The position numbers were made by a program, and so were the translations under genes. DNA of 64,000 nucleotides, from assembly GCA_030427505.1 (NCBI GenBank), contig JAUICH010000027.1, positions 1 through 64,000 on the forward strand, read 5' to 3'. A model generated the notes under the pieces. The model had not been told where the DNA came from. It searched no databases and saw only the letters and a program-made list of their open reading frames with translations. Below, one piece after another: positions 1 through 53,039 of the stretch. Position 1 is the stretch's first letter, and each line of letters starts with the position of its first letter. This DNA comes from Verrucomicrobiia bacterium (GTDB taxonomy: Bacteria; Verrucomicrobiota; Verrucomicrobiia; Verrucomicrobiales; DEV007).

Positions 1-3000
1 TCCGCAGCGCGGGCACGGGAGGCATCAACATCGTGGCTGGTTGGGACGGCTCCACGGGCCTCACCAACGGTATCGATACCCTGACCCTCGCCGACGCGGA
101 CACCTCTGATCCCTCGGGCATCTTCGATATCAGCGCGATCCTGGCCACGATGAATGATGGGGATGTGGACAACGACGCCGCCGGCCGGGATGGCGGTTCC
201 GTTTTCATCGGCCGGACCGCCAGTACCGTTTACGCGGTGAACGTCGGCAGCCGCTATGGCGATACCAATCTGGCTGCCCACGATCTTATCATGAAGGGTA
301 GCAACAGTAATGCCAGCGGCGCTGGGAACACTGGAGAGCGCTACACCCAGCTAGGCTTCCGCGATACCGGTTACGAGTACGAACTGGCTACCGCCAACGC
401 TAACCTCGAGAAGAACGAATGGTGGGGGAATGCCGCCGGGAATGTCCGCGGCAAAGACTACATCACGGATCTGGGCGGCACCCGGCTGGACGACGGCAAA
501 TTTGACGGCGCGGGCAGCGGCGCCACGGGGGACATCAATGTCGAACTCAGCGGGCGGCTGGAAATGCGCACCAGCGATGACAACCGCGGCTACGCCCAAA
601 TCGGTCACGGCGGTTCCGCCCGTCAGGACATGGAGGTGCAAGACACTGGCGGCTCCACCTCCTCCCGGCCCACCCTCACGACTCGCGATGGCATTACAAT
701 GGACTCGGGAGACACGAACTATCAGTTCTTCGGCACCACCTGGCGCACCAACACGGAAGCGACACCCGACAATGCATCGCTCTACATTGTGGACAGTGAC
801 ATCAACATCCACGTCGGGGAGGACGTCTTCATCAATGCCGATGACGATCCGATTGACGATGTGACAGACACGGCTGGCGCGGACGGCAGCACGGGGATGT
901 ACGTCCAGATCGGTCACGGTGGTGACGAAAACGTGGGGAGCTACCACGGGAACATCACGGTAATCGCGGAAGGAACCCGGGGCAGCACCGGTGTCGGTAT
1001 CGAAATGCGGAGCGGTAATGGCAGTTCCCGCTACGCTCAGATCGGGCACGGTTCCAACTCAGAGGGCAACCGCCGTTACATTTTGGACCAGCGTACCAGT
1101 GGCGACATCACGGTCCGCGCGGAGACCGGAGCGGTTCGAATGATTGGCTATAACCTCGTTCCCGATGTGGACGAAAACACCGCGCTTCCGGCCGGTTCCG
1201 GGTTGGATTCCGAACACCAGTACAGCCCCATTCAGATCGGTCATGGCGGCGCCTACGCCGCTCAGGCAACCACGGGAACGCCTAACATGTCTTCTCATGG
1301 CAACATTCAGGTGTTCGCCGGAGGGGTATACACGGATGCCACCTACGGTGACCTGGGCATTCAGGTTCAGGCCGGCAACCAGCAGGCCGCCTACGCCATG
1401 ATCGGTAACGGTGGTTACAACCTGCGGGCAAACACCGGCAGCGCGACCGGGTTCACCGGCAACATCGAAGTCATCGCTGACAAAGGGTCCATCCGGTTCG
1501 CGGGCGGCGAAGAGAAGCGTTCCCAACGCGACTGGGGCTATGGCTACAACTTCGTCCAGATCGGCAACGGTGGTTATAACGTGGACGGAAACTTCGAAGG
1601 CTCCATCACCGTTTCCGCCGGTCAGGGCGCCGGAGCCACTGGCGGCGACATCATCTTCGATTCCGGCCGCATGCGGCAGAGCTTTGCGCAGATCGGCCAC
1701 GGAGGATCGGAATCCCAGGGCATCGTAACGGGAGACGGCACCTCGCCCATTTCCGTGACCGCCCTCAATGACATTACCTTCACCTCCCGTCCATCGGCCC
1801 CCAGCAATGCCTACGGCCTTTCCACGGACTACCAGAACAACTGGAACAGTGAAGCCGCGCGGATCGACGGCAATCACCCGGAGGCGAATATCCGCAACCG
1901 CGCCTGGGATACCTCGATCAAGTTCGCCCACATCGGTCACGGCGGGAATAACTCGAACCTCAGCTCCACGAACAACGATCTCTCGGTCATTGCTCAGAAC
2001 GGCGACATCGTCTTCACCGGAGGCGACGGGAACCGCGACTTCATCATGATCGGCGGCGGCGGCTGGGAAGACGGCACCGACCGCAACATCAGCGGCAACA
2101 TCCTGGTTTCCGCGGCAAATGGCGACATTATCTTCGATGCCTCCAATGGCGGCGCGCCGGAATATTTCCGCACCTACGTCGGCTACGAAACCATCACGGC
2201 GGGGCAGGGCCTGGAGTCCTTCGCCATGATCGGTAACGGGGGCTACGACTACGATGGCGACCACAGCGGCTCCATCACCGTCACGGCTGGTGGCAACCTG
2301 CACATGATCGGGCCTAACACCAATACCACCATCCACACGGTTTCCGGATTTACCGGCAACAAACTGGTTGGGTATGACAGCACGGTTCACTCCTACACCA
2401 TGCTGGAAGAGGCCAGCCAGCAGTCCCGCACCTTCTTCCTGAGCCACGGGAATGTCGATCCCGGCACGTTCGTAATCGACGTGAATGCGAACCCGGACGT
2501 GGTCGATTCCGACAATGGGGACGGCACCGGCAAGCTGATGCGAGGCACGACCCAGGTTGGCACCATCAACTACGTGACTGGGGAAGTCACCTTTACGGCC
2601 AAGGCTCAGACGACCGACAGCGAAGCGAACAAGAACATCGACTACAAGTTCGACGGCGGCACAAGCGTCAATGACGAACGCACCATCGAGACGGACTCCT
2701 CCCTGCGTCCGACGGAAGCTTTCCTCGGTCACGGCGCGCTCGTTCCCGGCACGGTCACCATCGTCATCGATGCCGATGGAAGTGGCGGCGGCCGCATCGT
2801 CCTGACCGATCCCCTGGGTGATGGCAACCTCCGGACTTCCAACGGTCAGTCCGTGGCCAGCATCGACTACAACATTGGGCGGGTGCGTTTCAATACCGTG
2901 GTGAATACCGCCGGTGACGAGGTGGAAGCCAGCTATAGCTATACGGAGGGAAATTCCGACCGCGCTTTCGTTCAGATCGGTAACGGTGGTTACGGTTCCA

Positions 3001-6000: not shown

Positions 6001-9000
6001 AAAGCGTGAACGGCAGCGTCCTCTTCACCGCCGGAGCCAGCGTGGACTCCTACATCCAGCTCGGTCACGGTGGGATTACCACGGACGGAGATCATGTGGG
6101 TAACATCACGGTTTACGCCGACCGGGATGGCAGTTCCAGTGGAGTGGGTGGCGACGTCAAGTTCGATGCCTCAGAAGGAACCTCGGGCGGCCACTACGGC
6201 CATTTGGGGCATGGAGGAAATTTGGCCTCTGGCGGCCATACCGGAAATATCATGGTGGACGCCAGCGGGGAGATCAGCTTCCTGGCGGGTGTTGGCTCCA
6301 GCTACGTTCAGTTGGGGCACGGCGGCCGGAACGATCATCGCTTGACTCGGGGTGGTAATTCCACAGCCGGTTATACCTACAACAATAACAACGACCGCTA
6401 CTACGCAGGCACTCACACCGGAGACATCACGGTCCACTCTGGCGACGACATTACCTTTACCGCTGGGCACACCACGGGGGACACTGCGTTTGCCCAGATC
6501 GGGCACGGCGGTTTCCGTAACGCGGCGGAAGAAAATGAAGGGCACACCGGCGCCATCGAAGTTATCAGCGGCGGCGCCATTGCTTTCAGCGCGGGCGAGC
6601 GGAACCAGACCTACGCTCAGATCGGTCACGGTGGCTATGAAGCCTTCGGTAACCACGGTATCGTTCTGGAAGCCCGGTCCATCGCCGGAGACAATGTGTT
6701 GGACGGCGCCGCGTTGGCGGGCGACGGCACGGAAGCCTTCCTGGGGCAGGCTTATCAGGTGGGTAAGATCATTCCCGGTTCCGTGGTTATCACCGTGGAC
6801 CCGTCCGTGACGGCCGTGGTTTACACGGATGATGGCTCGGGCAAGATCGTGGACGGGAGCGATACCCAGGTCGGCTGGATCGACTACTCAACGGGACGAG
6901 TCTTCTTCATGTCCTCCATCGACCCAGGGGGTGACGGTACCTCCGTGGACTATGAGATGTTCGAAGTAGTGGATGACAGCAGCAGCACCATCCTGGTGGA
7001 AGCCGTGGGCGACATCGAGTTTACCGCGGGCACCGTTGGCACCCGGGGCGATCAGGCTTACGCCCAGATTGGCCACGGCGGGGCCACGGCGGACTTCAGC
7101 GCCACCCGTACCATCACGGATGAACTGGCGGCACAATCGACGCTTACCACGACCACGGCCTATCACCTGAATACCCCCACAACCACTCCGGTTGGCACGG
7201 CGGGCGACGTGACGGTCCGTACTACCGGCACGGACTCGGACATCCGGTTCACCACTGGGGCGGATACCGATAACTATGCCCAGATCGGGAACGGAGGCCG
7301 CGCCAATCGCGGCGATCACCGGGGCGACGTGACCGTGGAGGCCACGGGCGATGTGGAGTTCCTGCGCAATGACTCCCTTCAAAGCGCGACCAATGTCACG
7401 GTGTCTTCCACCACCGGCTCCAATCAGAATGTGGGCAGCGACTTCGACTGGGCTCCCGGCTCCGTCACGGTCACCGTGGACGCGGATGGATCGAATGGCG
7501 GCCCCTTTGTCTTCGACGACGACGGTCTGGGCGGCTTGATCGACACGGCGGGCGCTGTCTCCGATCCTGGGACAAAGGTGGCGACCATTGACTACGACGA
7601 CCGCCGCTTCACCTGGGACGGGGCCTACCAGATCAATCCTTCAAGCGATACCGTCACGGCGGATTATCAATACAGCCAGAACCTGCGCAGCTACGCCCAG
7701 ATCGGGAACGGCGGGCAGGACAGCGACAACGAAAACGGCCGCATGATGACCATGGGCCACACGGGTAACATCAGCGTCACCGCTGGAGGGGACGTTCGCA
7801 TGCATGCCGGGCAGCACTACCAGTCCTATGCCCAGATCGGGAACGGAGGGTATGACACCGAAGGCGCCAGCAGCGGCAGCATCGATGTTCACGCTGGCGG
7901 CTTGATCGAATTCCTCGCGGGCCAGGGCTATACCACCAATTCCGATGGCTCCTATGCTCAGATCGGCCACGGCGGCTACAGTTCCAGCGGCGCTCACACC
8001 GGAGACATCAACATCTCCGCCGGCGACAATAGCGGCGGTCTGTTTTTCAAGGCGGGTGACGTGGCAGGTAACTACGTCCAGATCGGTCACGGCGGGTTGG
8101 CTTCGAAAGCGGGCGGCAATCAGACCCTGACCGATTCCGACTTCGGCGCCGCGGCGGGCTTCTCCGGTTCCATTACCATCAATGCGGTGGGAGACGTGAC
8201 CTTCCTCGGAGGCACCGGTAAAGCGTTTGAAGGTACCTCCGATGGCGATCTCTACGCCATGGTGGGCCACGGCGGATACGATGCCGATACCACGGAGAGC
8301 GAAACGCTGCTGGATCCGGCCGGGGCTCCCGGGCATACGGGAGACATCAGCGTGACCAGCAGCCAGGGGAACATTTCCTTCCAGGCGGGTGATACGGCCC
8401 AGGGAAGCCTCGGCGAAGGCTTTGGACGTTTCCACTTCACCCAGTTGGGTCACGGGGGTTACGAGTCTATCGGGAATCACAGCGGCAACATCACGGTGGA
8501 GGCGACTCTCGGCTCGATCACCTTCCGGGGCGGTTCTTCCACGGATAACACGGGGGACCGCTACAACTATGCCCAGCTCGGTCACGGGGGCGCGGTGGCC
8601 CGGGGCGACCATGGCAAAGACGGGGAACTCATCTCCGTTCTGGCGGGTGGCGACATTAACTTCCTTGGCGGCGGTCCTTTGGGGAATCGTTCCTATGCTC
8701 AGTTGGGCCATGGCGGCATTGATTCGGACAACCCGAATGGAGGAGCGCCGGGCGATCCGGGAAACCAGGCTGACATCATGGTGGTTTCCACCGGTGGGGA
8801 CATCAACTTCACTGGCGGTAGCGCCGGTGTTGCCTATGCCCAGCTCGGCCACGGCGGTTATGCCACCAATGGCGACCACTCTGGAAACATCACGGTCCAG
8901 GCTGAAAGCGGCTCCATCAATTTCACCGGCGGCACCTCCGGAACGACCTACACACAACTCGGTCATGGCGGCCGCGAAGCGTCCGGTAATCATACCGGGA

Positions 9001-18977: not shown

Positions 18978-19327
18978 TCTCCGCGTTCAGCTACCAAATT
19001 CCAAAAAACTCAGATCCCCCTGGAAACCCCAGGGGGATTTGTTTTTTTGGTCCTAAAGTTTTCGCGCTCCTCTTGAGGGAGGGTGCTTGCCAATCCTGGA
19101 GACTCATTGATCCTGAGTGGGTTGGCGGGTGTCTTCGAGGCTTTTCTGGCTCCGGATACGCGATCGTGCCATTTTTGAAATTGTTACTTTTGCGAGGGCC
19201 ATATCTTTGGCAACGTAATTCCGGTACGACACATTTGTGTCTCCCATGACAAATTCCCTTGAGGGAGAGGGGGTAATCGCCCTTTATCAAGAAGCCCTGT
19301 TCCTTTTTTGTAGCCCACCCCTAGATC
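18978..19327. other. Intergenic region between the two giant genes
   Basis: 350 bp with no credible gene. The left part holds the terminator described separately. The rest should hold the promoter of the second giant gene. The best -35/-10 I can see is TTGGCA at 19207-19212 with CACATT 17 bp on, which is weak. A 10-bp direct repeat, CTTGAGGGAG, occurs at 19072-19081 and 19258-19267 and could be a regulatory site. No Shine-Dalgarno sequence is visible before the GTG at 19328. Confidence 0.5.
19014..19048 (+). terminator. Strong rho-independent terminator after the first giant gene
   Basis: A perfect 10-bp stem (19014-19023 pairing with 19029-19038, GC-rich core CCCCCTGG/CCAGGGGG) encloses a 5-base loop and is followed directly by TTGTTTTTTT. 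It lies 36 bp after the stop codon, so the second giant gene probably has its own promoter. Confidence 0.9.
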
Positions 19328-34300: not shown

Positions 34301-37300
34301 GGGCGCAATTTCAGCGGCTCGAAGTCTTCGGATTCCTTCACCGTCACGTCGAACAACGGGTCTCTCGATATGCGGGCCGGTAACGTGGGTAGCGTGAACG
34401 AAGACGGTCGCCGGGTATTCTCTCAGATCGGTCACGGCGGGGCGGAGTCCGACGGCACCATCACGGGAGATTTGTCCGTGCAGATTGACGGTTCCATCAC
34501 CATGCAGGGCGGCGGCCGGGAGTTCAACTACGTCCAGATCGGTCACGGCGGTTATGAATCCGATGGCAGCTTCTCGGGCAGCCTTTCGATCAACACGGAT
34601 ACGGGAACCGGCACCGGGGCCATCACCCTGACGGGAGGTGACAACACCGGCGCTTACGCCATGATCGGTCACGGCGGCATGGAAGCGGACGGCACGAAGG
34701 ACGGCGACGTGATCGTCGGCAACGCCACGGGCATTACGCTGAACGGCGGCGGTCTCGCCACATCCCCCTTGTCCACCGGCTACTACGCCCAGATCGGCCA
34801 CGGCGGGGCGGATGGATCGGGAGCCATTACCGGAGACGTCATCCTGCAGGACATCGCGGGCGCCGTGGCGCTGAACGGGGGAAGCTTTGATGAAGCCTAC
34901 GCCCAGATCGGCCACGGTGGCACCCGCTACGACGGGACGAAGGGAGACCTCGCCAACGACGAAGTGACGGTCAACGCGGTGAGCATCACCGGCACCGCCG
35001 GGTCCGCCGTGGGGGCCTACGTCCAGGTTGGAAATGGCGGCTACCTGTCCACCGGCTCCGGCCTGGCGAACATCAACGTTCTCACCACCGGCAACAGCGT
35101 GACCATGAGCGGCGGCAGCGCGCTGGGCGCCTATGCGCAGATCGGTCACGGCGGCTACAATGAAACGCGCGAGTTCGACGGCACGGGCGACGATATCGGC
35201 GCCAGCGCCATTTACGCGGACGCCACCCACGCCGGCCACATCGTCATCAACGGCGGCACCGGCGCGGTCACCTTCACCGGCGGCAGCGGGGACGGGGCCT
35301 ACGCCCAGGCCGGTCACGGCGGTCACCGGAACTCCGCCGTGGATGGCGAAGGCCACCACGGAGACCTCAGCATCACCGCCGGAACGAATATCGTCTTTAC
35401 CGGCGGAACGGGAGAGGGAGCCTACGTGCAGGCCGGCCACGGCGGTTACCAGTCCGTGGGCAATCACGGCTTCGGTGACGTGGAAGGCGGCACGGATGAC
35501 GATGGCGACATCTCCCTGTCGGCGGCTGGCACCATCACCATTCAGGGCGACAACGACAGCGAAACCGATGCCGACGGTCTCCGCGCCTACGCCCAGGTCG
35601 GGCACGGCGGGTTCGACGCGGACTATGACACCTTCATCGTGACGGACACGGATATCGCCGACGGTGGCGTGCCGGTCTATGAGGACAACCGCGCGTCGAA
35701 TTTACAGGGCAACATTTCGGTGACCTCCACCAGCACCACGAATGGCAGCATCATCCTCCGGGCCGGTCAGAATAACGAGGGCGCCCAGGCCTACGCCCAG
35801 ATCGGTCACGGCGGTTTCGACACCACCGGGAACTTCGGCGTGGCGGGCAACACCATCGTGGTGGACAACTCCGCCGACACCACCTCCACCGGATACGTCC
35901 GCCTGATCTCCACGCAGGACGGCGGGGCGTCGGACCGGTCGTCGGCGGGTAGCTACACCCAGATCGGCCATGGCGGGCCGGTGAACATTGAAACCGGCAG
36001 CACGCAGATCTTCACGGGCGACGCTGCGGACCCGAACGCGAACTTGGCGCCGGCGGAGGGCGATCATACCGGCAATATCACGGTGTCAGCTGGGGGCGGC
36101 GGCGTTCTTCTGGATGCGGGCACGGGCAATGACGGCGACGCGCGCATCGGCCACGGCGGCCAGCGGAACAATGACGGCTCCGCCGATGGCACGGCGACCA
36201 CCGGCGACATCACCGTCACCACCGTGGCGGGGGATATCAACATGCTCGGCGGCGCGGGCGGCGGCTTCCAGAGCCCGGCGCAGATCGGTCACGGAGGGAT
36301 CGAGTATGACGGTCCGGCGTCCGGCAGCATCACGGTAGAGGCGGGCACCGGAGGCACGGGTGGCGCGGTATTGCTCAACGGCAGCGGTTCGCAGCGCTCC
36401 TACGTCATGATCGGTCACGGCGGCAACCGGGCCGACGGGAGCTTCGGCGTCGCCACGGACAACATCAGCGTGACCGCGGTGGATGAAATTCTCCTGCAGG
36501 CGGGTCCGCTGGAGTCCTTCGCCATGATCGGGAACGGCGGCTTTACCGCTGTCGGCGATCACCTGGTGGATTCCCTGTCCGTCACGGCGGGCCTGGGAAT
36601 CACCCTGAACGCGGTCAATCAGAACGACTCCTTTGCCATGATCGGTCTCGGTGGGCGGGACTCCGACGGCAATCACACCGCGGGCTCCATTACCGTGGAA
36701 GCCGGGAATGGCGACATCCAGTTAAACAGCGCTGCGGGAACGCGCGCCTACACTCAGATCGGGGTGGGCGGTCATGGAGCCCAGGGAGACATGGCCATTA
36801 CGGGCGACTTGACCGTGACGGCGTCGGACAATGTGTCCCTGAACAGCGGCGAGGGTGCCCAGGCTTACTCCATGATCGGTGTCGGCGGTAATGCCGTGGA
36901 CGGCACGAATAGCGCCAACGCCATCAACGTCACGGCCACAAGCGGCGGGGTTACTCTGACTTCGGCCAGCGGCGGTTCCGATAGCTTTACCCAGATCGGA
37001 ATTGGCGGTCATGAAACGGATGGCACCAAGACCTCTGCCATCAATGTCTCCGCCGGGACGAACGTCACTGTCACCGCGGGTAACGCGGACACCAACTACG
37101 CGATGATCGGTCTCGGTGGGCACGGGGCCTATGGAAACGGGACCGGTGCCATTTCCGTGACCGCGGGCACCTCCGGCGACGGTAGCGTCACCGTGACGGC
37201 CAGCGATACCAACAACCAAGCCTACGCTCAGATCGGCCACGGCGGTCGCTGGGAGCCCACGGAAGGCACGTTCGCCGAATCGGATTTCGACGGAGGCATT

Positions 37301-40300
37301 ACCGTGAACGCAGCCACGGACATCCTCGTGGATGGCGGTGGCGGCACCTCCTACGCCCAGATTGGTCATGGTGGCCGCTCTGCCCGTGCCACTACCGGCC
37401 ACACGGGTAACATTGACATCGACGCGGGGAACGACATTACCCTGTCTGGAGGGGTGGTGAGCGATCCGGCGAACTCGGATGGCTTCGCCATGATCGGTCA
37501 CGGTGGAGCGGACTCTGACGGAAACCACGGCGGCACCATTGAGGTGGATCTAGGTGGCGATCTGACCCTGAACGGTGGAGGAAATCCGGCGGATACGCGG
37601 ATCAATGAGTTCGCCCAGATTGGCCACGGCGGCACCGCGCATTCCGGAACGCTGAATGGCGACATACTCATCAATCAGGATGGAGGCACCGGAGGCGACA
37701 TCACGCTGACCGGCGGAAATCAATCCACCACCTATGCCCAGATCGGTCACGGCGGCGCGGGCCAGTCCGGCGACATCGGCGCCACGACGGCTAATATCGT
37801 GATCGATACCGATGGCGCCATCACGCTGCAAGGCGGTTTGAACGCGCTGAGCAGCACCGCCTACGCCATGATCGGCGGCGGTGGAAATGGCCACACCGGG
37901 GCGGTTAACGGGAATGTGACCGTGAACGCTGATGACGCGGTCACGCTGACGGGTGGCGCTGGCGCCGCCGCGTTTGCCCAGATCGGTGGGGGAGGTTACT
38001 ACCAGAACGGCAATGTCTCGGGCAACGTCTCGGTAACCACGGGTGCCTCCGTGACCCTACAGGGCGGCAGCGCCGCGGACACCTACGCGCAGATTGGGAA
38101 CGGCGGCCGGTTCACCCGGGGTGACCTGGGCGGAAACGTGACGGTGGATGCCACCACGGGCGTGGACATGAATGGCGGCGTGGGCGACAACCGCGCCTAC
38201 GTCCACATCGGGCACGGTGGGCACGACTCCGAAGCCGCCAGCGCGGACGGTTACAGCGGCACGGTCATGGTGACCACCAACACGGGCGACATTACGCTGG
38301 ACGGCGGCAGCCCCAGCACCACTTACGCGCAAATCGGTCATGGCGGCTACAACAACCCGGGCGAAACTTTCGCCACGGCCTTCAGTGGAGACATCACGGT
38401 GGAAGCCACCACTGGCAACGTTTCCCTGACGGGGGGCATCACCGCGATGGGCGGTAGCCAGCCCTATGCCATGATCGGCCACGGCGGTTATGAGCGCGAC
38501 GTGACGGTGGCGAATACCGATGGAGACACCGGGCACCACGGCAACATCTCAGTGACCGCGGGGCAGGACATTTCCCTGGCCAGTACGGGTACCGGCGGCC
38601 AGGTTTACGCTCAGATCGGTCACGGCGGAGCGCACGCGGATGGCGACCACGGTCAGGCGGACGAGGATATTACCGTCACCGCTGGCGGAAGCGTGACTCT
38701 TACCGGCGGCGTCAATACAGACAACTACGTCCAGATAGGCAACGGGGGCCGCTTGGGGATCGGGGACAAGTCAGGCGACATTTCGGTGACAGCCCAGACC
38801 GGTAGCATCAGCATCACCGGCGGCTCCGGTGGCCGGACTTATGCGATGATCGGTCATGGGGGGCACAACTCGTCAGGTGACCTGACTGGCAGCATTACCG
38901 CGGATGCTCAGACGGGTGTTGCTGTCAATGGTGGCTCGAACCAGGAATCCTTCGCCATGATCGGCCACGGGGGGGACAGCGCCACGGCGTCTGGGGGCGT
39001 CTTCTCTGGTGCCGTGGAGGTGACGACCAATACCGGCGACATTTCACTACTGTCCAACCCTACTGACAACGGCAGTGCGAACCGCACCTTTGCCCAGATC
39101 GGTCACGGCGGTTATGCGGCTGCGAATGGAGACTACACCGGTAACCTCACGGTGGAAGCCACGGCGGGCAATGTGACCCTGATGGCCAGCGACCTGGCGA
39201 ACAACAACTACGTCATGATCGGGAACGGCGGCATCTCCGCCACGGCGGTGAACGGCCACGGAGGTAACATCGACGTGACCGCCGGACTTGGCGTGACCGT
39301 CCAGGCGGGCGGCTTGGGAACGGGTAGCGCCCGCTTTGCCATGATCGGCCACGGCGGAACAAATTCGGACGGCAATCACGGCAGCACGGGCGAGTCCATC
39401 GAAGTCACCGCCCACGGTGGCAATGTCGAGGTGCTCGGTGGCGATGGGGACGACTACTTCGCCCAGATCGGGAGTGGTGGCGCCAGCAACAATGGAAACA
39501 TCACGGCGAACATTATCGTTACCTCAGACACGGGGAACGTAAATGTGGTGGGCGGCACCTTCACGGAATCCTACGCCCAGATTGGTCACGGTGGGGTGAA
39601 TTCCATCGGCGACGCGACTGGCAGTATTACCGTGGATGCTCAGACGGGAGTGAATGTCACGGGCGGTGAGCTGCAGGAATCTTACGCGCAAATTGGCCAC
39701 GGCGGCGATAACGCCCGCGCGGGGGGCGTGGGCTTCACCGGCGCGGTGACCGTCACCACGGATACCGGGAATATTGCGCTGACTTCGAACCCCACCACGA
39801 ATTCCGGCGCGAACCGCACGTTCGCCCACATCGGTCACGGTGGCCTTCTCAATGCTTCCGTGGACGGAGACTCCACCGGAGACATCGAAGTGATTGCTTC
39901 CGCCGGCAGTATCACCTTGGTCGCGGGGGATATCGCGTCCAACAACTATGTGATGATCGGCCATGGTGGCATCGGCAACGACGCCCTGACTGGTCACAGT
40001 GGAAACATCACGGTCACGGCCAACCAGGACGTCTTGGTGGAGGCAGCCGATGCCGGGAGTGGTGGTCCGCGTTTTGCCCAGATCGGCCACGGTGGCGTCG
40101 GCACGGACGGAAGCCATGGCCTGGACGGCGAAAGCATTTCCGTCACGGCGGAGAACGGCTCCGTTCAGGTCTTGGGCGGTCAGGGCGATGACTTCTATGC
40201 TCAGATCGGGAATGGAGGCCGGAGCGCTGTTGGCAATCACACCGCGGACATTACCGTCACGGCCGCCACAAATGTGATCGTTACCGCCAACGACGGCACG

Positions 40301-43300
40301 GGTGGATCGCGTGGCTATGCCCAGATTGGGAATGGTGGGCACAATGCCGACGGAAATCACACCGGCAATATCAGCGTCACGGCCACGGCCGGAAACGTGG
40401 AACTCACTGGCGGCACCAATGGGACTTTCGAGTCCTACGCTCAGATCGGTCACGGTGGGGTGGAAGCCCAGGGTAATTTGGGCGAGGTGAATGAGACGCT
40501 GGATGTCATCGCGGGCACCAGCATCATTCTCAATGCCGGCGGGTCAGGGGATGCCCTGGCCCATATCGGCTACGGCGGCACCAATGCCAGCGGGACGATG
40601 ATCGCTGACATTACCGTCAATGCTCAGAATGGCATGGTGACCTTGACGGGCGGCACCAATACCGGCGCCAATGCCCGCATCGGTCACGGCGGACGGGTTG
40701 CGGACGGCACCATTACCGGGGACATTGATGTGGATGCCGAGACGGGCGTCTCCGTTTCAGGCGGTTCGGGTGCGACGGCCGTGTTTGCCCAGATCGGCCA
40801 CGGCGGGCACAGCTGGGCCGGAAACATCACTGGTAGCGTGGATGTCACCACCCAGTCAGGAGGCATTGCCATCAGCGGCGGTTCCAGCCAGGAAAGCTAC
40901 GCGCTGCTCGGCCACGGGGGTGACTCCGCGGTCGCGGGTGGCTCCGGCTTCGACGGCAGCGTCACGGTGCTGGCGGTGAATGGAAATATCGAGATTCTTT
41001 CCAACCCCACGGATACCGCGGGCGGCAACCGGACCTTTGCCCACATCGGCCATGGCGGGTTCAACAATGGAAACGTCAGCGGAGACTTCACCGGTGACGT
41101 GTCCGTCACGGCCAGCAATGGCGACATCAGTCTGCAGGCCGCGGACGAAGGGAATAACAACTACGTAATGATCGGTCACGGGGGCGTGAATGATGACGCC
41201 ACCAATGGGCACTCCGGAAACATCACGGTCACCGCTTCGGATGACATTGAGCTGATCGGCGGCGGCATCGGCAGTGGTACCGCTACCCGGCAAGCTCAGA
41301 TCGGTCACGGCGGCAACGGTTCCGCCGGAGATCACGGCTCGGCGGGCGAATCCATCATCGTGACCGCGGGCACGGACGGAACCGGGACGATCACCATACA
41401 GGGCGGCGATGAAGATGCCGCCTACGCGCAGATCGGTCACGGGGGCACCAACTCCAATGGCGACATGACGGCGGACATCACCGTCACCGCCCCGGACGGC
41501 ATCCTGGTGCAGGGGAATCCGGGCACCAGCGGCACGGAGTCCTACGCCCAGATCGGCCACGGAGGCTACGATTCCGACGGAACCCGCACCGGGAATATCC
41601 GGGTGGTCGCCACGAATACTGGCGCGGACGTAGTCGTGCAGGGGGGCGCCTCCCTCCATTCCTATGGGATGATCGGTCACGGGGGCATCCTTTCCTCCGG
41701 CTCCGCCACCGGCGACATCGTGGTGATCGGTGACGAGCTTTTTGATGTCTTGGGTGGTACCGGCGAGCAGGCCTTTGCCAAGGTCGGTCACGGGGGCTTC
41801 AATTCCGATGCCAGTGCCTCCGGCGATATCTACATCAACTACGATCCGCTGCTTCCCGGGAATTCGGGCGGTTCCGGCATCCTGAGAGTCCTCGGTGGGA
41901 CCGGCACGGCGGGCGACGATGCCTTCGCCCAGATCGGTCACGGCGGCAGCGAGAGCGATGGCGACAAGGACGGCGATATTCTGGTTCAGTCCGCTACCGA
42001 TATTCAGATCGAAGGCGGTGACTCTGATGATAACCTGGCGGTCATCGGTCACGGTGGAGCCAGGGCCTCGGGCCTGAAGGACGGAGCCATTACCGTCACA
42101 TCGGGGGCGGCTCTTACGATCCAGGGTGGGGATGAAAACAACGCCTTCGCCCAGATCGGTCACGCGGGGGGAGACGGCTATATCGGGGTGGAATCCGGGA
42201 CCATTACCGTTACCGCCGAAGACAGCCTGGACCTCCTGGGCGGCACGGATAACAACACCGCCGCGCGTATCGGTCATGGCGCCGCTTCGAACGACTTGAA
42301 CGACGCCAGCGGCAATATCGTGGTGACGGTCAACAATGGCACCCTGACCTTGGAGGGCGGCACGGACGCGAACTTCTCCTATTCCCAGATCGGTCACGGG
42401 GGCGCGGATGGCGGACTGGGTGACAAGACGGGGAACATTCTCGTGAACGTCTCAAACGACGTGCTTCTGAACGCCGGGGTGGAAGACGCCACCTATGCCC
42501 AGATCGGTCACGGCGGGTTTGGTAGTGACCTTGGCGTGTTGGGCATGGACGAAGACAGCAATCCCAGCACCACGACGCGGGACCTTATCATGGTCATGGC
42601 GGGGAATGATGTCATCCTGACAGCCAGCGCCACGTCGGGTGCCAGCGATGCCTATGCTCAGATCGGTAACGGTGGGGCTGAGGCGGATTCCGATGCCAAC
42701 AGCCACATCGTGGTCATGGCGGGTAACGATATCGGCTTGGTGGGCGGCGCCGGAGTGCGTAGCTACGCGCAGATCGGCAATGGCGGCACGCGGGCGGATG
42801 GCGACCGGACGGGCGACACCTTCGTGGACGCGGGGAACAACGTTTCCCTGACCCGTGGCGGCGGTTCCAATGCCTATGCCAAGATCGGTCATGGGGACCA
42901 GATGTTCTCGGGTGGAAACAACAGCAGCGGCGCCAGCAGCGGCAACATCCAGGTCACTGCCGGGGAAGACTTCACGTCCACCGGCGGCATGGTGGGTCAC
43001 TTGGACCCGGACATTACCACTTCAGCCACGGTAAGCGACGCAAGCACCTACATTGCCGTCAGCCGCAACGATGTTGAGGCCACCGGCACCGGAACCATCA
43101 CCACGGACGCGGACTCCGTGTTTACCAGCGCGCCGGACGGCGAACTCCGGTTCTACATTCCGGCTCGCGACAACAACTTGATGGCCGTGGGCACCCAACT
43201 GAATGGCACGGCCTTCATTGGCGCCGTCGCGGCCGCTGACGACCAGAGAGAGGACGAGTTCATCATCCACGCTTCGGATAGCGATCCGGCGGAACATGCC

Positions 43301-44125
43301 AACCTGGCCGATCTGGTGGACCTGGCGAATCTCTACACGGGCTCCACCGATGGGACTTCACAGGTTCGCTGGCTGGAGAACAAGACCGCCATCCAACTGA
43401 CGGAGGACACGGCCAACTACTCCACCTCGCTGGGCAACTACAGCCTCTACTACGACACCATCGAAGGCATCGCGGTCTCATCGGGCGGCGGTGACGATGG
43501 CGGTGGCGATACCGGTGGAACCGGCGGCGACGGAAGTGGTGGCGGCAGTACCGGCGGAACGGGTGGCGGTTCTGATACGGGTGGAACCGGTGGAACGGGT
43601 GGCGGTTCTGATACGGGTGGAACCGGTGGAACGGGTGGCGGTATCGGAGGTACTGGTGGCGGCGCCGACGGAGGAGAAGAGGTGGACGAAGACGCGGATA
43701 TCGTCTTGGTGGAAGGTTTGTTCCTGATTCGTGACGGTGTGGTGGGATTTGTTCCGGGGCTCCTCGGCCCGAACTTCACACCGGTCGGGCCGGTCGTGTC
43801 GAATGATTACCTGGACGATTCCCTGACTCATCTTATCGACCGTTGGTCGGATTCGTTTGGGAAATACTCGACGTTTGGCTGGGGCGAGCCGGGAGGGTAC
43901 TTCTTCGAAATCGGCTACTCCGAACTCGCGGGTCCTGGCGGCTACTCCAGCTTCTTGGTATTCGGCACGGGAGAATTTGGCACCACCTTATTCCAACCGG
44001 AGATTTACGTCGGGCTGGAAAACTCCGATGAACTCCGCAAGCTGATCGAGCTGCAATTGGAACTCTACGGCAGCTTTGGCGATGGTGCGGACGAGCCGGA
44101 CGGCGAAGAGAAAGAAGAGGAATAA
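19328..44125 (+). CDS. Giant TPS-type filamentous haemagglutinin-like exoprotein, 8,265 residues
   Basis: Starts with GTG; an in-frame TAG lies one codon upstream, so no earlier start exists. Residues 1-35 form a signal peptide with a charged n-region and a hydrophobic LLIVCLVMPGLVAW core. Residues about 36-280 match the TPS/haemagglutinin-activity domain: INWESFSIG, QPGATSAALNRV, and NPNGI at 118-122. Residues 280-650 are Gly-rich FHA-type coils ending in GGFVEVSGK and GTLLLDP, both typical of large TPS exoproteins. The rest is about 155 copies of Y-A-[QM]-I-G-[HN]-G-G with strand spacers, interrupted by two long AGWDG modules. A GTGGGSDTGGT linker, a GWGEPG module and an acidic tail close the protein. 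Expected route: Sec, then an outer-membrane TpsB porin, but no TpsB gene is in the window. Role as adhesin or matrix fibre is inferred. Confidence 0.95.
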   Translation: MKPLLSFLRNKNLTKLLIVCLVMPGLVAWPTVSWSNPSGGVVVNGLAEIGEGLDGNLSILQHSDKAIINWESFSIGPGELTQFFQPGATSAALNRVSTGNPSLIQGALRANGNLLLINPNGIVVGPTGTVDVNGFVASTLELSDAQFLAGGDLLFSGVTEAGVQNFGRINGVGGDVFLIGKTVTNSGSILAPNGRVGLAAGQEVLISAAPDANGERVFVRPTAGTGGIGIGVDNSGLIEGAAVELKAHGNMYALAINNSGSIRATGAVNSGGGVYLRSEGGRIDNTGVIEATMPNGDGGRILIDAGVGGIVNAGGTLKADAAGSGHGGSVTLLGDQINVQAGASISAEGDLGGGTVQIGANPISGRPGEAEASDINIAEGSNISVRSGSAEGGKIFVTGNSASTVRIGGELNARSDTQKGGTVQVWGAQVTLAPGSYIDAGGGTGGGDIEITADGELMVNGVVVAQGDTGKGGEIHLGGKDKVTVTPGAVVNADGGTDGGTIQVASDANGATQVDGALSAVGGSGQGGTISVEGGEVGVGGTAVIDASGGSGGGQVFVGGGFRGSDPSLLNASKTTVAAGAQIKADATQSGAGGSVVVWSDGDTLFQGDISAQGMNQGGFVEVSGKQRLGFHGTVSTLASQGPSGTLLLDPHNGVISSGASTGQQDDFVVNNTALAGTLQAGNNVIISTSGPGVTQDGDLTVEDAVLWDSVGSLTLLANDDLQFNASVRNDGSGAINIVSGWDDSTGLPFPIVYTPPQTTGAGAFDMAAIFTDPTSYGASSGTVTIGDGTQTTGIEVGSRQGDTNVAAYGVALNGGTAADAYAQLGYRTQVTGTGATGNIRVDTLEGGVSLASGSAQNTYTQIGHGGSGSAATAPQSGNVTVDATRGTTDGDILLQGGGANAYAQIGHGGFENDGAFGLAGDQLVVNANAITLNGGGASEAYAQIGFGGMNASGAHTGDIFINYDPNSNTAAGGGGAIQLNGGGASGTTNAYAQIGHGGVNTDSTKTGNITLGQAGAITLQGGDGTAAYAQFGHGGYESDGGMSGDINIQSATSVTLTGGGTDDGAYAHIGHGGIDGSGNLSGDVILDTIDNAVTLNGGTGNETYAMIGHGGVRATGTKGNLVAIDDPGVEEIRVVAGSVVLNGGTFDTALGDRTDSFAMIGHGGVSSSGLSGAHINVTAEDTVVDINGGSAVNAYGMIGHGGVLSRSNHFGNISVTAETDVTVTGGLGRPTFTQIGHGGYDSDASSGGGHTGDITVTATTGDLIQQGGQQSAGSVGEYAWSQIGHGGHISTGNHSGDVTVSVGDSLLMERGLRDVTYKQIGHGGLNFSGNLSGNIIVAVENDIDMFGHTNDFSYAMIGHGGRNITGTKSSDIFAVTSNNGSLDMRAGNVGSVNEDGRRVFSQIGHGGVESNGAITGDMSVQIDGSITMQGGGRDFNYVQIGHGGYDSDSTRAGTLSINTVAGTGNGAITLTGGDNTGTYAMIGHGGASADGAKDGDLVIGNATGITLNGVGTSAAGTVNPSDSTDTLGVFAQIGHGGADGSGNITGDVILEDIAGTVTLNGSSVAAGGSAVEETYAMIGHGGTRYDGTKGDLDNDEVTVNAVSVTGTAGTATGVYVQIGNGGYLSSGSGLANINVITTGNSVTMSGGSMLGAYAQIGHGGYNESRDLSGTGGTDIGARTGYAYATHGGHITINGGTGSVTFSGGGGVGAYAQAGHGGYRNSAVIGEGHYGDIDIDAGTFVAVEGGAGENSYAQVGHGGFQAVGNHGFGDVEGGADDDGDISIDAGSYVFIGDNGADNDADGLRAYSQVGHGGFDADYDTFTGAAGLQDTQAVYDDNRPVNLQGSITVNAGGNIDVRSSQDTNEAAQAYGQIGHGGFDTTGNFGVAGNVITVNNSSGSGSIEIFATRASGGSVDRGTSGNYAMIGNGGAVNTEDGSAVQDATGTTNLDFSDPNLNATPAEGDHTANIVVSAGTGGLTAFAGTGNTSEAHIGHGGYNNGDGNADGTGHTGDVTVTSVNGNITIQGGNGGGYESPAQIGHGGINSDGDHSGNITVTAGGTGQVRLNGSGSSNSSVHIGHGGRNSDGNFGATDEDILITAGGNVLVNAGGSGSFAQIGHGGPNANGSHSIRNIRVESTGGRIDLTAGGSGGYTQIGLGGSSVSGDMTSTLISVISNGGIALVSGNSSTSNTYSQIGNGGQTQQGTKSGDVAVTAGGDVTLTAGDGTANYSHIGNGGHSAYGNATGNVSVTTTGGGSVSMTASSLANQSYAQIGNGGRYEPGSGGFIYTNQTGNITVNADGNITIQGGGGTSYALLGNGGRGVQSFDPGGTDPFTGGHSGTIDIDAGGDISLTGGSVTDPINGNGFALIGHGGDNSDGNHSGQIDVDFDGTLMLTGGGNPADVRDSEFAQIGHGGSSHTGTLDGDILVNQDGGTGTGITLTAGVSNNTNASIGHGGNNHSGDIGANTSANITVNTGGNVDLNGSSEATASNAYAQIGHGGANANGAVGNAAVSVTAAGAVLMDAGLGSNDYVQIGHGGYGSNLVMDAASNVNVTVQADGAVVINGTTGTTGVSAYAQIGHGGINAQLDMSTVTSANITVGSGGDVDLNGSTESTATNAYAQIGHGGTNISGGIQNAMVSVTAADAVLLDGGLGSNNYAQIGHGGVNSGLDISNSSIMVTAQGGRVDVLAGAASQAYAQIGHGGAVSNTNPVGTSVSNSDVTVLAQAGTVFVKGAVGNDAFAQIGHGGSQNSGGLSGDILVNATGDVSVIAGDQSRAYAQIGLGGHDSYGAKTGTVSVTSQTGSITVQASKTANQSQAQIGHGGRKDNTDDDYATGPFDYTGGITIDAAQDFTVDGGGGTSYAMVGHGGYDSDAVTGHNGDFNIDVGNDFKILGGAADDLGNSNGFAQVGHGGTESQGAHNGTMNVDFGGNLIITGGGDSVGDIKTQEQAQLGHGGLNSHGAQFGDILINQDGGTGTGIALSGGIENRSFAQIGHGGRNADGAQTGNITIFVNGDVSLTGGSDLETYAQIGHAGYSSSGTKTGQITIVTTSGGLDLVGGSDATAYAMIGHGDGTGTVGGNRTGDIFLQIDGETSLESNTGGYTLGHRTSSGAINSEFVLLSNSLDFDASSAATDFTISGTDGDAFQSQMAANLAAGNVTVGNLSTGDMNVVSDLLYNGANTLSYLSRGDLNFVDSQVLNSGSGDLNLIAGWDGATGLATLDTSAPFDNPPITGPLFQASAIQDDVTAAGFGNADDDGFGVVTVGGDTATELSAAGSKSGTTYVAGNAVNLRGSDGTVGAGAQIGYQTTTVDDDATGGILVESKEGGVNLTSGTAGSTYTQIGHGGLAAGDAGNHTGDVTVNARRGAADGDVTLTGGGTNAASYAQIGHGGYNHEGNHGAASDVITVIAGNVTGQGGGSGGAESYVQIGNGGYLARGSHQGIVQVYAEDSISFSGGTTHAYAQIGNGGYDSDDAGGDTTAARHSGNVSLVARTGDIYFEGGSGSSSYAQAGNGGSNVSGVLTGNVTARAGGDVTFLGGTGGDAYAQAGNGGFAAVADTATNLGHSGNVTISSGLAGPFSDVGDFDGDSTPDSITFVNNSVDGILIKGGPGSGTGGYAMAGNGGRNANGDHTGDISITASQNVAVEGGAGNTAFAQVGNGGDASSGDQNGSISIQSTGGAVSVLGGTGGNASAQVGHGGRLTTGNKGDADDTLTVQAAGDITLQGANGDNGYAQIGNGGIASTTGTRMGDIAVISDDGDILLSGGISTTLDDSYAMIGHGGTQSTANNTATSGDITVTALGTTGGNITLTAGSGGTGNGNFAKIGHGGNQIRSNQGTAGDFIAVNASKNLTLTGGSNDPSAPGAFAQIGNGGYDSDGNHAGDILINQDAAASGANVTLQGGSGVGAFAQIGHGGYLSTGDADGNLTLYLDGNVSLTGGSNTGAYAQIGHGGDGSSGDKNGQISIVTNGGDLDVIGGAAAAGYAMIGHGEPDGTETGERTGDIFIRIDGETSLESNSGGYILGHRTADTADNSFEFVFLSDLLDFDSTSAATDFTISGADGDGFQAMLGTNADFGNVTVGSLGTGNMNIQSGLLYNGSNVLSYLSEGDLNLLNAEIMNAGSGGLNLIAGWDGATGLATLDTTFPYDNPPITGPLFQASAIQGDATGNSFGNADDDGFGEVTVGGTAATGRSTAATAGGETYVAGFAVNVNASDSFANSSAQIGYRSTTVSATGDIVVQAKEGGVTLDSGSASSGYTQIGHGTRGGGTGVAQSGNISVDATRGATDGAVQLLGGGSGGSAQIGHGGNNYNGNMGLATQTITVRGGALTLQSGTAGQSYTQIGNGGYDSDGDHTGDIDVVVSGDISLATSTGGSAMAQVGHGGHSTSGDMSGSILLQTTGGTFSMQGSTGDSSFLMVGHGGQSSSGSKGADGDTITVQADGDILLAAGTVNNSNVQIGNGGLAATAGSGKIQFADISVISDNGNVTLTGGTTAADDAWVLIGNGGAQHSSTATGDILVEALNGTVTLNAGTGASAGGVDNPSFVQIGHGGHENDGTLGAADSRLVVNADSIELNGGDASEAYAQIGNGGFDADGTHRGDIFINYDPDSNTAVGGGGGIQINGGGTSGTVDAYAQIGHGGANGGGTQSGNLTLGQAGAISLQGGAGEAAYAQFGHGGHGGGGGNMSGDIDIQSTTSVTLTGGDTDDGAYAHIGHGGIDRSGNLSGDIILDTIANAVTLNGGTGNETYAMIGHGGVRATGTKGTFTGVADPDLDEVRVVAGSVVLNGGTFDTTLGDRDSSFAQIGHGGVDSSGNSGAHINVTAEDTVVDLNAGSAVDGYSMIGHGGDGATGDHLGNVSVTAATDVTVTGGLGRPTFAQIGHGGNNSGATTGHTGNVNVTATAGDLILEGGQQSTGGGVGEESFAHIGHGGDGSGGDHSGDVTAIVGDQLIMRLGLRDLNHKQIGHGGTNASGNLSGNITVTVENDIDMFGHSNDFSYAMIGHGGRNFSGSKSSDSFTVTSNNGSLDMRAGNVGSVNEDGRRVFSQIGHGGAESDGTITGDLSVQIDGSITMQGGGREFNYVQIGHGGYESDGSFSGSLSINTDTGTGTGAITLTGGDNTGAYAMIGHGGMEADGTKDGDVIVGNATGITLNGGGLATSPLSTGYYAQIGHGGADGSGAITGDVILQDIAGAVALNGGSFDEAYAQIGHGGTRYDGTKGDLANDEVTVNAVSITGTAGSAVGAYVQVGNGGYLSTGSGLANINVLTTGNSVTMSGGSALGAYAQIGHGGYNETREFDGTGDDIGASAIYADATHAGHIVINGGTGAVTFTGGSGDGAYAQAGHGGHRNSAVDGEGHHGDLSITAGTNIVFTGGTGEGAYVQAGHGGYQSVGNHGFGDVEGGTDDDGDISLSAAGTITIQGDNDSETDADGLRAYAQVGHGGFDADYDTFIVTDTDIADGGVPVYEDNRASNLQGNISVTSTSTTNGSIILRAGQNNEGAQAYAQIGHGGFDTTGNFGVAGNTIVVDNSADTTSTGYVRLISTQDGGASDRSSAGSYTQIGHGGPVNIETGSTQIFTGDAADPNANLAPAEGDHTGNITVSAGGGGVLLDAGTGNDGDARIGHGGQRNNDGSADGTATTGDITVTTVAGDINMLGGAGGGFQSPAQIGHGGIEYDGPASGSITVEAGTGGTGGAVLLNGSGSQRSYVMIGHGGNRADGSFGVATDNISVTAVDEILLQAGPLESFAMIGNGGFTAVGDHLVDSLSVTAGLGITLNAVNQNDSFAMIGLGGRDSDGNHTAGSITVEAGNGDIQLNSAAGTRAYTQIGVGGHGAQGDMAITGDLTVTASDNVSLNSGEGAQAYSMIGVGGNAVDGTNSANAINVTATSGGVTLTSASGGSDSFTQIGIGGHETDGTKTSAINVSAGTNVTVTAGNADTNYAMIGLGGHGAYGNGTGAISVTAGTSGDGSVTVTASDTNNQAYAQIGHGGRWEPTEGTFAESDFDGGITVNAATDILVDGGGGTSYAQIGHGGRSARATTGHTGNIDIDAGNDITLSGGVVSDPANSDGFAMIGHGGADSDGNHGGTIEVDLGGDLTLNGGGNPADTRINEFAQIGHGGTAHSGTLNGDILINQDGGTGGDITLTGGNQSTTYAQIGHGGAGQSGDIGATTANIVIDTDGAITLQGGLNALSSTAYAMIGGGGNGHTGAVNGNVTVNADDAVTLTGGAGAAAFAQIGGGGYYQNGNVSGNVSVTTGASVTLQGGSAADTYAQIGNGGRFTRGDLGGNVTVDATTGVDMNGGVGDNRAYVHIGHGGHDSEAASADGYSGTVMVTTNTGDITLDGGSPSTTYAQIGHGGYNNPGETFATAFSGDITVEATTGNVSLTGGITAMGGSQPYAMIGHGGYERDVTVANTDGDTGHHGNISVTAGQDISLASTGTGGQVYAQIGHGGAHADGDHGQADEDITVTAGGSVTLTGGVNTDNYVQIGNGGRLGIGDKSGDISVTAQTGSISITGGSGGRTYAMIGHGGHNSSGDLTGSITADAQTGVAVNGGSNQESFAMIGHGGDSATASGGVFSGAVEVTTNTGDISLLSNPTDNGSANRTFAQIGHGGYAAANGDYTGNLTVEATAGNVTLMASDLANNNYVMIGNGGISATAVNGHGGNIDVTAGLGVTVQAGGLGTGSARFAMIGHGGTNSDGNHGSTGESIEVTAHGGNVEVLGGDGDDYFAQIGSGGASNNGNITANIIVTSDTGNVNVVGGTFTESYAQIGHGGVNSIGDATGSITVDAQTGVNVTGGELQESYAQIGHGGDNARAGGVGFTGAVTVTTDTGNIALTSNPTTNSGANRTFAHIGHGGLLNASVDGDSTGDIEVIASAGSITLVAGDIASNNYVMIGHGGIGNDALTGHSGNITVTANQDVLVEAADAGSGGPRFAQIGHGGVGTDGSHGLDGESISVTAENGSVQVLGGQGDDFYAQIGNGGRSAVGNHTADITVTAATNVIVTANDGTGGSRGYAQIGNGGHNADGNHTGNISVTATAGNVELTGGTNGTFESYAQIGHGGVEAQGNLGEVNETLDVIAGTSIILNAGGSGDALAHIGYGGTNASGTMIADITVNAQNGMVTLTGGTNTGANARIGHGGRVADGTITGDIDVDAETGVSVSGGSGATAVFAQIGHGGHSWAGNITGSVDVTTQSGGIAISGGSSQESYALLGHGGDSAVAGGSGFDGSVTVLAVNGNIEILSNPTDTAGGNRTFAHIGHGGFNNGNVSGDFTGDVSVTASNGDISLQAADEGNNNYVMIGHGGVNDDATNGHSGNITVTASDDIELIGGGIGSGTATRQAQIGHGGNGSAGDHGSAGESIIVTAGTDGTGTITIQGGDEDAAYAQIGHGGTNSNGDMTADITVTAPDGILVQGNPGTSGTESYAQIGHGGYDSDGTRTGNIRVVATNTGADVVVQGGASLHSYGMIGHGGILSSGSATGDIVVIGDELFDVLGGTGEQAFAKVGHGGFNSDASASGDIYINYDPLLPGNSGGSGILRVLGGTGTAGDDAFAQIGHGGSESDGDKDGDILVQSATDIQIEGGDSDDNLAVIGHGGARASGLKDGAITVTSGAALTIQGGDENNAFAQIGHAGGDGYIGVESGTITVTAEDSLDLLGGTDNNTAARIGHGAASNDLNDASGNIVVTVNNGTLTLEGGTDANFSYSQIGHGGADGGLGDKTGNILVNVSNDVLLNAGVEDATYAQIGHGGFGSDLGVLGMDEDSNPSTTTRDLIMVMAGNDVILTASATSGASDAYAQIGNGGAEADSDANSHIVVMAGNDIGLVGGAGVRSYAQIGNGGTRADGDRTGDTFVDAGNNVSLTRGGGSNAYAKIGHGDQMFSGGNNSSGASSGNIQVTAGEDFTSTGGMVGHLDPDITTSATVSDASTYIAVSRNDVEATGTGTITTDADSVFTSAPDGELRFYIPARDNNLMAVGTQLNGTAFIGAVAAADDQREDEFIIHASDSDPAEHANLADLVDLANLYTGSTDGTSQVRWLENKTAIQLTEDTANYSTSLGNYSLYYDTIEGIAVSSGGGDDGGGDTGGTGGDGSGGGSTGGTGGGSDTGGTGGTGGGSDTGGTGGTGGGIGGTGGGADGGEEVDEDADIVLVEGLFLIRDGVVGFVPGLLGPNFTPVGPVVSNDYLDDSLTHLIDRWSDSFGKYSTFGWGEPGGYFFEIGYSELAGPGGYSSFLVFGTGEFGTTLFQPEIYVGLENSDELRKLIELQLELYGSFGDGADEPDGEEKEEE
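19433..20170 (+). other. TPS / haemagglutination-activity domain (PF05860-like)
   Basis: Encodes about residues 36-280 of the second giant protein. Visible hallmarks are I-W-x-S-F-x-I-G, Q-P-x(4)-S-x(2)-L-N-R-V, and the NPNGI box with the following G-VDVNGFVAST strand. In this family the domain is recognised by the POTRA domains of a TpsB transporter, so it is the best evidence for the export route. Confidence 0.88.
22020..26720 (+). repeat. Long internal duplication in second giant gene, copy 1 (partner near 32930-37740)
   Basis: The order of distinctive loops is repeated with an offset of about 10.9-11.1 kb. Examples are LNGGGASEAYAQIGFGG (22123) and LNGGDASEAYAQIGNGG (33020); the FNYVQIGHGGY unit (23634 and 34525); the DADYDTF loop (24774 and 35622); FDTTGNFGVAGN (24957 and 35816); SPAQIGHGGI (25420 and 36270); and the INQDGGTG loop (26600 and 37670). 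The offset shift from about 10.85 to 11.08 kb shows later small gains and losses. Confidence 0.8.
28560..34310 (+). repeat. Tandem 2.75-kb module with SLESN / GHRT / AGWDG landmarks (two adjacent copies)
   Basis: The block begins with GDIFLQIDGETSLESN, then GGYxLGHRT, FDxxSAATDFTISGxDGD, GNVTVGxLxTG, LLYNGxNxLSYLS, LNLIAGWDGATGLATLDT, DNPPITGPLFQASAIQ and GNADDDGFG. It occurs from about 28560 and again from about 31306, a period near 2,746 bp. A more diverged relative, INIVSGWDDSTGL, follows the TPS domain near 21535, and another, INIVAGWDGSTGL, opens the visible part of the first giant gene. The modules seem to punctuate the array; copy 2 runs into the 32.9 kb duplication. Confidence 0.7.
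38980..41470 (+). repeat. Three-fold repeated SNPT / NRTFA[QH]IGHGG / NNYVMIG module
   Basis: A block of about three to four helix turns recurs with SNPT at about 39053, 39788 and 41001. Each copy contains [SA]NRTFA or GNRTFA, then NNYVMIG, NGHxGNI or TGHSGNI, and a GxxGESIxVTA strand. Spacings of about 735 and 1,213 bp differ because extra GHGG units lie between copies 2 and 3. Confidence 0.7.
43557..43642 (+). repeat. 36-bp minisatellite in the Gly-rich linker
   Basis: Two identical 36-bp units (43557-43592 and 43593-43628) and part of a third encode GTGGGSDTGGTG-type repeats between the beta array and the C-terminal module. Exact DNA identity, unlike the diverged protein repeats around it, suggests recent slippage, so linker length may vary between strains. 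Confidence 0.85.
43717..44122 (+). other. Shared C-terminal module of the second giant protein
   Basis: Landmarks parallel those of the first giant protein: IRDGVVGFVPG, VVSNDYLDD, DSFG, GWGEPG, YSSFLVFG, LENS, a Leu-rich helix-like segment, then an acidic tail ending EEKEEE. Because the linker before it is low complexity, this is a discrete domain rather than part of the helix. Function unknown. Confidence 0.7.
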
Positions 44126-48253: not shown

Positions 48254-48295
48254 CAAACCCGCCCAATGTATTCTGTAGCATCAAAGATCAGAACG

Positions 48296-53013: not shown

Positions 53014-53039
53014 GGGATCCAGCAAGGGTCAGCCGGTTT

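Follow-up and report, generated by a model that had tools for sequence, protein, structure and literature searches.

Two adjacent giant genes at a contig end

The window, meaning the whole 64,000-nucleotide stretch analysed (positions 1 to 64,000 of contig JAUICH010000027.1, here C41, from the Verrucomicrobiia assembly GCA_030427505.1), opens with two adjacent giant genes whose open reading frames cover 68% of it. Gene 1, as delimited in the list of open reading frames, runs past the contig start at its 5' end and encodes a protein of at least 6,324 aa (640 kDa); gene 2 begins with GTG and encodes 8,265 aa (804 kDa, pI 4.15), and both products are highly acidic. The preliminary description of two neighbouring paralogues of at least 6,324 and 8,265 residues, filling about 68% of the window, is exact in its reading-frame lengths. 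The features of the pair, all on the forward strand, are as follows.

3..18977, +, gene 1, giant exoprotein with its 5' end off the contig (open reading frame, translation)
591..17822, +, repeats of gene 1, matching the unit about 100 times and broken up by inserted modules (unit HMM)
6660..6974, +, gene 1 inserted domain, unlike the repeat, first of at least five copies (gap in unit HMM, motif)
7362..7691, +, gene 1 inserted domain, copy 2 (gap in unit HMM, motif)
10044..10286, +, gene 1 inserted domain, copy 3 (gap in unit HMM, motif)
10674..11009, +, gene 1 inserted domain, copy 4 (gap in unit HMM, motif)
14403..14669, +, gene 1 inserted domain, copy 5 (gap in unit HMM, motif)
18513..18974, +, C-terminal end of gene 1, a conserved domain with an acidic tail (last 30 aa with net charge -12)
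19328..44125, +, gene 2, giant exoprotein with GTG start (open reading frame, translation)
19328..19432, +, probable signal peptide of gene 2, cut near SWS-NP (by eye from the translation)
19493..20194, +, gene 2 TPS secretion domain (PF05860) with NPNG (Pfam match, motif)
20195..21487, +, gene 2 Gly-rich strand-turn region 3' of the TPS domain (translation)
21905..42988, +, repeats of gene 2, matching the unit 158 times (unit HMM)
28598..29323, +, gene 2 'header' module (NLIAGWDG...), opening the second superblock (unit HMM, motif)
31331..31969, +, gene 2 'header' module, opening the third superblock (unit HMM, motif, block alignment)
38606..39706, +, gene 2 stretch of 9.9 units given to AlphaFold2 (pLDDT 95.4, pTM 0.94)
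42989..43456, +, gene 2 last module (TYIAVSR...GNYSLYYD), kept in paralogues
43457..43702, +, gene 2 Gly/Ser/Thr linker
43703..44122, +, C-terminal end of gene 2, a conserved domain (GWGEPGxYxF...YSSFLVFG...DELRKLIELQL) with an acidic tail

The Gly-rich strand-turn region of gene 2 matches no Pfam family above cut-off. In gene 1, a domain of about 110 residues (PGSVxITVD...DDGxGxxxD...TGRVFF) interrupts the coils in at least five copies between positions 6660 and 15389; no Pfam family was found in the parts of it that were scanned, and an AlphaFold2 model from 3 alignment rows reached a pLDDT of only 49.8. Two further copies of this domain lie in a paralogue on contig C34. Long antisense frames opposite the repeats are taken as by-products of a repetitive, GC-rich coding strand. 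Downstream of the pair, starting with a lutA-like gene 117 bp 3' of gene 2, the neighbours are of ordinary kinds and encode LutA/LutB-like proteins, sulfatases, a planctomycete-type cytochrome, DUF1501 proteins, FtsW and ThiG. Three sulfatase genes lie near the giant genes (48266-49795, 51241-53025 and 62037-63419), a trio fitting a sulphated-polysaccharide lifestyle.

Repeat unit and predicted coil geometry

A profile HMM made from the units describes a repeat of 37 positions with the consensus YAQIGHGGYNSDGDHTGDITVTAGGDITLTGGTGTGA, matched 100 times in gene 1 and 158 times in gene 2; ten composition-shuffled copies of both proteins gave 1 weak match in all. The octapeptide YAQ[IL]G[HN]GG occurs in exact form 41 times in gene 1 and 35 times in gene 2, and a regular expression for its degenerate form finds 95 and 139 occurrences. 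The figures of about 95 and 155 octapeptides first proposed from a manual reading hold if degenerate copies are counted, with the regular expression and the HMM (100 and 158) in view, but not for the exact form. Octapeptides most commonly recur every 37-38 residues in gene 2; for gene 1 the figure is 37-44, the longer spacings there being due to the inserted modules.

Above the level of the unit, gene 2 is organized in superblocks, each opened by a 'header' module, of which the first and third (A and C) are collinear with 54% identity over 2,439 aligned columns, and gene 1 contains long internal super-repeats with about 75% DNA identity. Superblock duplications inside both genes show about 75% DNA identity over 1.5-2.7 kb, and the arrays have therefore expanded at least partly by duplication of large blocks.

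Given the 9.9-unit stretch of gene 2 and 39 aligned stretches, AlphaFold2 returned a beta-helix with three main strands per unit at the scores listed above. Foldseek found no significant match to this model in the PDB (best E 0.1) and nothing usable in a viral library, so that the fold assignment rests on VIA-align, whose matches (Z 11-14.6) are nearly all right-handed beta-helices, led by the SRRP adhesin 5nxk (Z 14.6), PfbA 3zpp (14.1) and pertactin 2iou (14.1). For repeats, a VIA-align Z under about 13 may reflect merely a common arrangement, and the comparison covered 235 pre-selected chains, a list from which FHA30 was missing and which allows no conclusion on that account. The model's ten units align to 189 residues of the 3p4g beta-helix, or about 19 residues per unit, and 3p4g consists of 19-residue coils; ten units thus pair with ten coils, which implies one coil per unit.

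Co-variation was assessed, protein by protein, as the agreement (kappa) between residues that occupy the same column in adjacent units. This agreement is higher than expected at columns 4, 6, 19, 21, 27 and 29, and weakly so at 1 and 23. In the window genes, kappa at the coupled columns is 0.16-0.48 (column 4, 0.48; column 6, 0.30; column 29, 0.36), drops at lag 2 and for most columns is close to zero by lag 3. Mean neighbour agreement in the remaining 29 columns is about zero, so that recent unit duplication is not the cause of the coupling; moreover, a reduced set and a non-verrucomicrobial set agree on columns 4, 6 and 29. Columns 4, 19, 21, 27 and 29 are the hydrophobic core, and column 6 is the His/Asn position, the coupling of which points to a His/Asn stack running along the helix. 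In addition, there is strong coupling between Gln 3 of a unit and the aromatic residue 1 of its successor, and the Y/F, Q and H/N positions of the octapeptide show much higher conservation than the rest of the polar strand positions, in other phyla as well.

Altogether, the repeat region is predicted to form a right-handed beta-helix in which each unit most likely supplies one coil, 37-42 residues long, and the His/Asn column is stacked. The check suggested earlier, for a helix of this kind with one octapeptide per coil or pair of coils, is answered in its favour along two independent lines, the high-confidence model with its VIA-align matches and the in-register co-variation. The stacking signal, furthermore, lets solenoid geometry be tested from sequence alone.

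The repeat has no match in Pfam, NCBIfam, PHROGs or PDB sequences. Neither Fil_haemagg (PF05594) nor Fil_haemagg_2 (PF13332) matches the window genes, the best score of an FHA-repeat model in the genome (16.7 bits, below cut-off) falls in another gene, and PATR (PF12951) finds no match across the genome even at E 1; the refuting case named at the outset, in which the unit would simply belong to an established family of adhesin repeats, is not borne out by these searches. The octapeptide motif was also absent from the literature searched, a scope outside which preprints and most subscription journals lay.

Secretion, relatives and distribution

The TPS domain noted in the second gene is clear, with PF05860 scoring 97 bits (cut-off 33.5) over residues 56-289 and an NPNG motif at residue 118; this N-terminal domain therefore identifies the pair as two-partner-secretion (TpsA) exoproteins. 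The corresponding part of gene 1 lies beyond the contig start. Contig C48 begins with the very same 127 bp as C41 (window positions 1-127), the two diverging beyond, and contigs C45 and C54 end within closely similar 5' starts of TPS-coding genes, a pattern indicating that the assembly broke at a repeat shared by paralogues. Gene 1 thus very likely has such a domain, located off this contig, and the TPS start on C45 or C54 could belong to either truncated giant gene.

Six ShlB/FhaC (TpsB) matches occur in the genome, adjoining TpsA loci on contigs C34, C47 and C7, and none lies beside the window pair or anywhere on C41, C45, C48 or C54, the upstream side of gene 1 being missing from the contig; accordingly, the pair must depend on a TpsB acting in trans, unless one was lost in assembly gaps.

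The genome holds eight giant paralogues, on C41 (two), C34, C45, C47 (two), C48 and C7, which together make up 128.8 kb or 2.0% of the genome and carry 19 to 150 unit matches each. A C-terminal domain, followed in most by an acidic tail, is conserved among most of them, which suggests a common anchoring or release role and argues against a contact-dependent inhibition (CDI) toxin. In this genome and in locus L103 the domain reads GWGEPG...YSSFLVFG...DELRKLIE; relatives in other Verrucomicrobiota (L093, L074 and L099) end in YYEGFxQYGPNGES followed by DEEDVLRRQL, and both types often end in acidic tails. Homology between the domain and this short verrucomicrobial motif found no support (hhalign probability 2.4%).

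A scan of 85,000 species genomes, which used an octapeptide-only alignment (A2) and not the 25-unit profile (A1), retrieved 64 loci, mostly from Verrucomicrobiales MAGs, together with Alphaproteobacteria (Roseibium, Rhizomicrobium), one gammaproteobacterium and Candidatus Theseobacter. The preliminary description had suggested a search of PVC genomes; the unit is not specific to these, given the alpha- and gammaproteobacterial MAGs. The unit HMM finds about 3,140 units in the proteins of these loci and the window, a count that takes in some DNA more than once, as some loci overlap on one contig; median unit spacing is 37-46 residues in nearly all of these proteins, and the unit consensus is maintained in the non-verrucomicrobial set. 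A phylum-wide search with the A1 profile at E 1e-5 returned the window's own genome only, with few candidates scored per genome and mostly from other families, an outcome that carries no weight as absence, the later search of relatives having found further bearers. No matches to the unit were found in viral contigs or plasmids.

Secretion features accompany the repeat among these relatives. All eight giant relatives whose N-terminus was scanned have a TPS domain, including those of Alpha- and Gammaproteobacteria; a ShlB/FhaC gene lies beside or near the giant gene in three of the loci that were read (L045, L050 and L052), of which L052 is a compact gammaproteobacterial cassette with a TpsA of 2,064 residues and ShlB adjoining it; and ShlB/FhaC is present in 19 of 19 searched genomes with the repeat vs 0 of 14 control genomes. 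Tandem pairs of giant genes recur at L044, L045, L074 and L096. Within the window's own family the unit was found in 17 of 36 genomes, vs 1 of 21 drawn from elsewhere in the order, a patchiness expected of accessory surface proteins.

Some records were set aside or call for caution. A 24,681-residue ShlB-bearing frame in genome G403 is an artefact of bases read as N. Locus L047, labelled Chloroflexota/Anaerolineae, was not counted as evidence from another phylum: the C-terminus of its giant TpsA is nearly identical to those of the alphaproteobacterial L048 and L049, its look-alikes come from similarly named samples, and mis-binning or recent transfer is probable. Locus L077, filed as Akkermansia muciniphila, bears the unit, which the order's many small Akkermansia-like genomes lack, and its label is doubtful.

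Known systems, alternatives and proposed function

The proteins share with TpsA exoproteins of the FHA kind a signal peptide (here probable), a TPS domain with NPNG, a tandem-repeat right-handed beta-helical rod (here predicted), a ShlB/FhaC-type pore in the genome and a non-repeat C-terminal domain. FHA has about 80 repeats of at least 19 residues in a rod of 40-50 nm (PMC3756990); its 19-residue coil (PMC3756990) is about half the 37-42 residues found here, where the consensus is unrelated and has the octapeptide and the His/Asn column. Further differences are that the window pair has no adjoining TpsB and a conserved C-terminal domain of its own, and that its masses of 640 kDa (gene 1, truncated at the 5' end) and 804 kDa compare with a TpsA range of about 100-650 kDa (PMC5422565). 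HMW1 and HxuA resemble the pair in TPS domain, beta-helix and conserved C-terminal end, but have a disulphide C-terminal anchor. The mature giant proteins contain zero cysteine, the sole Cys of the gene 2 protein being residue 20, inside the probable signal peptide, and an HMW1-type anchor is therefore excluded. The nearest solved structures are the beta-solenoids of SRRP (5nxk, 5ny0) and PfbA, with VIA-align Z of 13.8-14.6, a likeness of predicted fold only, with no PDB sequence relative found by profile; these adhesins use another route of secretion and are not known to carry a comparable regular repeat. Apilactobacillus kunkeei Giant1-5, compared by description, are likewise encoded by consecutive genes and are extracellular proteins of 3,000-8,000 residues with beta-solenoid parts (PMC12863079), but belong to another phylum with another cell envelope and have the solenoid at their N-terminal ends only (PMC12863079). 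Giant genes are also known in PVC bacteria (PMC12057145), so that, with giant tandem solenoid proteins on record (PMC12863079), size and tandem layout alone are not new. What is new is the class of coil repeat, and what is known is the TpsA kind of exoprotein and its export route; the 'distinct class' put forward at the outset survives as a new repeat within TpsA exoproteins, not as a new secretion system.

It is quite probable, in our view, that the pair are TpsA exoproteins exported via TpsB and folded at the surface into a long right-handed beta-helix with one coil per repeat, likely serving adhesion. Each protein would start out with a signal peptide and, at its N-terminus, a TPS domain (for gene 1, presumed), and the unfolded chain would thread N-terminus first through a ShlB/FhaC (TpsB) pore, probably encoded elsewhere in the genome and acting in trans. 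TpsA proteins fold at the surface (PMC5422565), and folding here would produce one very long right-handed beta-helix with a 37-42-residue repeat per coil, in which YAQI, ITVTA and ITLTG would form the strands and a long Gly/Asp-rich loop would follow G-[HN]-G-G. Hydrophobic ladders and the stacked His/Asn column would lock adjacent coils, and variable loops and inserted domains would point outward. As the rise of a beta-helix is generally about 0.48 nm per coil, the 158 coils of the octapeptide part of gene 2 alone would make a rod some 75 nm long. Adhesion, as cell-cell cohesion or binding of matrix or polysaccharide, may then fall to the loops, the inserted domains and the repeated columns.

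The same columns could instead make the fibre mainly a ligand or metal platform, with His/Asn, Gln and Tyr columns binding metal, haem or polysaccharide along the rod. The conservation of Y/F, Q and H/N across some 3,200 units, other phyla included, the coupling of the H/N column between adjacent coils, and the precedent of the TpsA protein HxuA, which acts on hemopexin (PMC5422565), speak for such a role, which we nevertheless consider unlikely: the H/N coupling could also come from a purely structural ladder, and a metal site would be weakened by the replacement of His by Asn, seen in 12-27% of units. In pectate lyases an Asn ladder is structural. That the some 100-160 His stacked along each rod act together as an unbroken ladder binding metal, haem or protons is a very slim prospect; if true, the fibre would serve as a conduit or reservoir outside the cell instead of as a passive adhesin.

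A surface-layer or slime polymer devoid of specific binding, or repeat expansion devoid of selected function, would accord with the superblock duplications in both genes and the patchy occurrence in the family, but is rather improbable in view of eight stop-free giant frames and strict stacking over thousands of units in several phyla, which speak for selection acting on fold and secretion. A CdiA-like stick for CDI, or for another polymorphic toxin, presenting a C-terminal toxin to neighbour cells would likewise have a TPS domain and a very long beta-helix (PMC5422565), and we give it scant credence, as the VENN motif is absent from both proteins, the C-terminal domain is kept between paralogues and not hypervariable, no toxin family was found in the C-termini with Pfam, and the next gene downstream is lutA-like, not a small immunity gene. 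An ordinary FHA-type protein with diverged R1/R2 repeats and two 19-residue coils per unit would share its secretion domain and general beta-helix architecture with FHA (PMC3756990), but is highly improbable given the failure of both Fil_haemagg models in both genes, the coupling of the same column in successive 37-residue units, and a model with three strands per unit whose ten units span about 190 residues of 3p4g.

The adhesion or matrix fibre, and not a CDI toxin, is thus the function we infer for these surface-exported beta-helices. Their 37-residue coil recurs in thousands of copies over Verrucomicrobiota and some Proteobacteria, offering a handle for annotating many giant 'hypothetical' proteins and a regular scaffold for the study of very large proteins crossing a TpsB pore.
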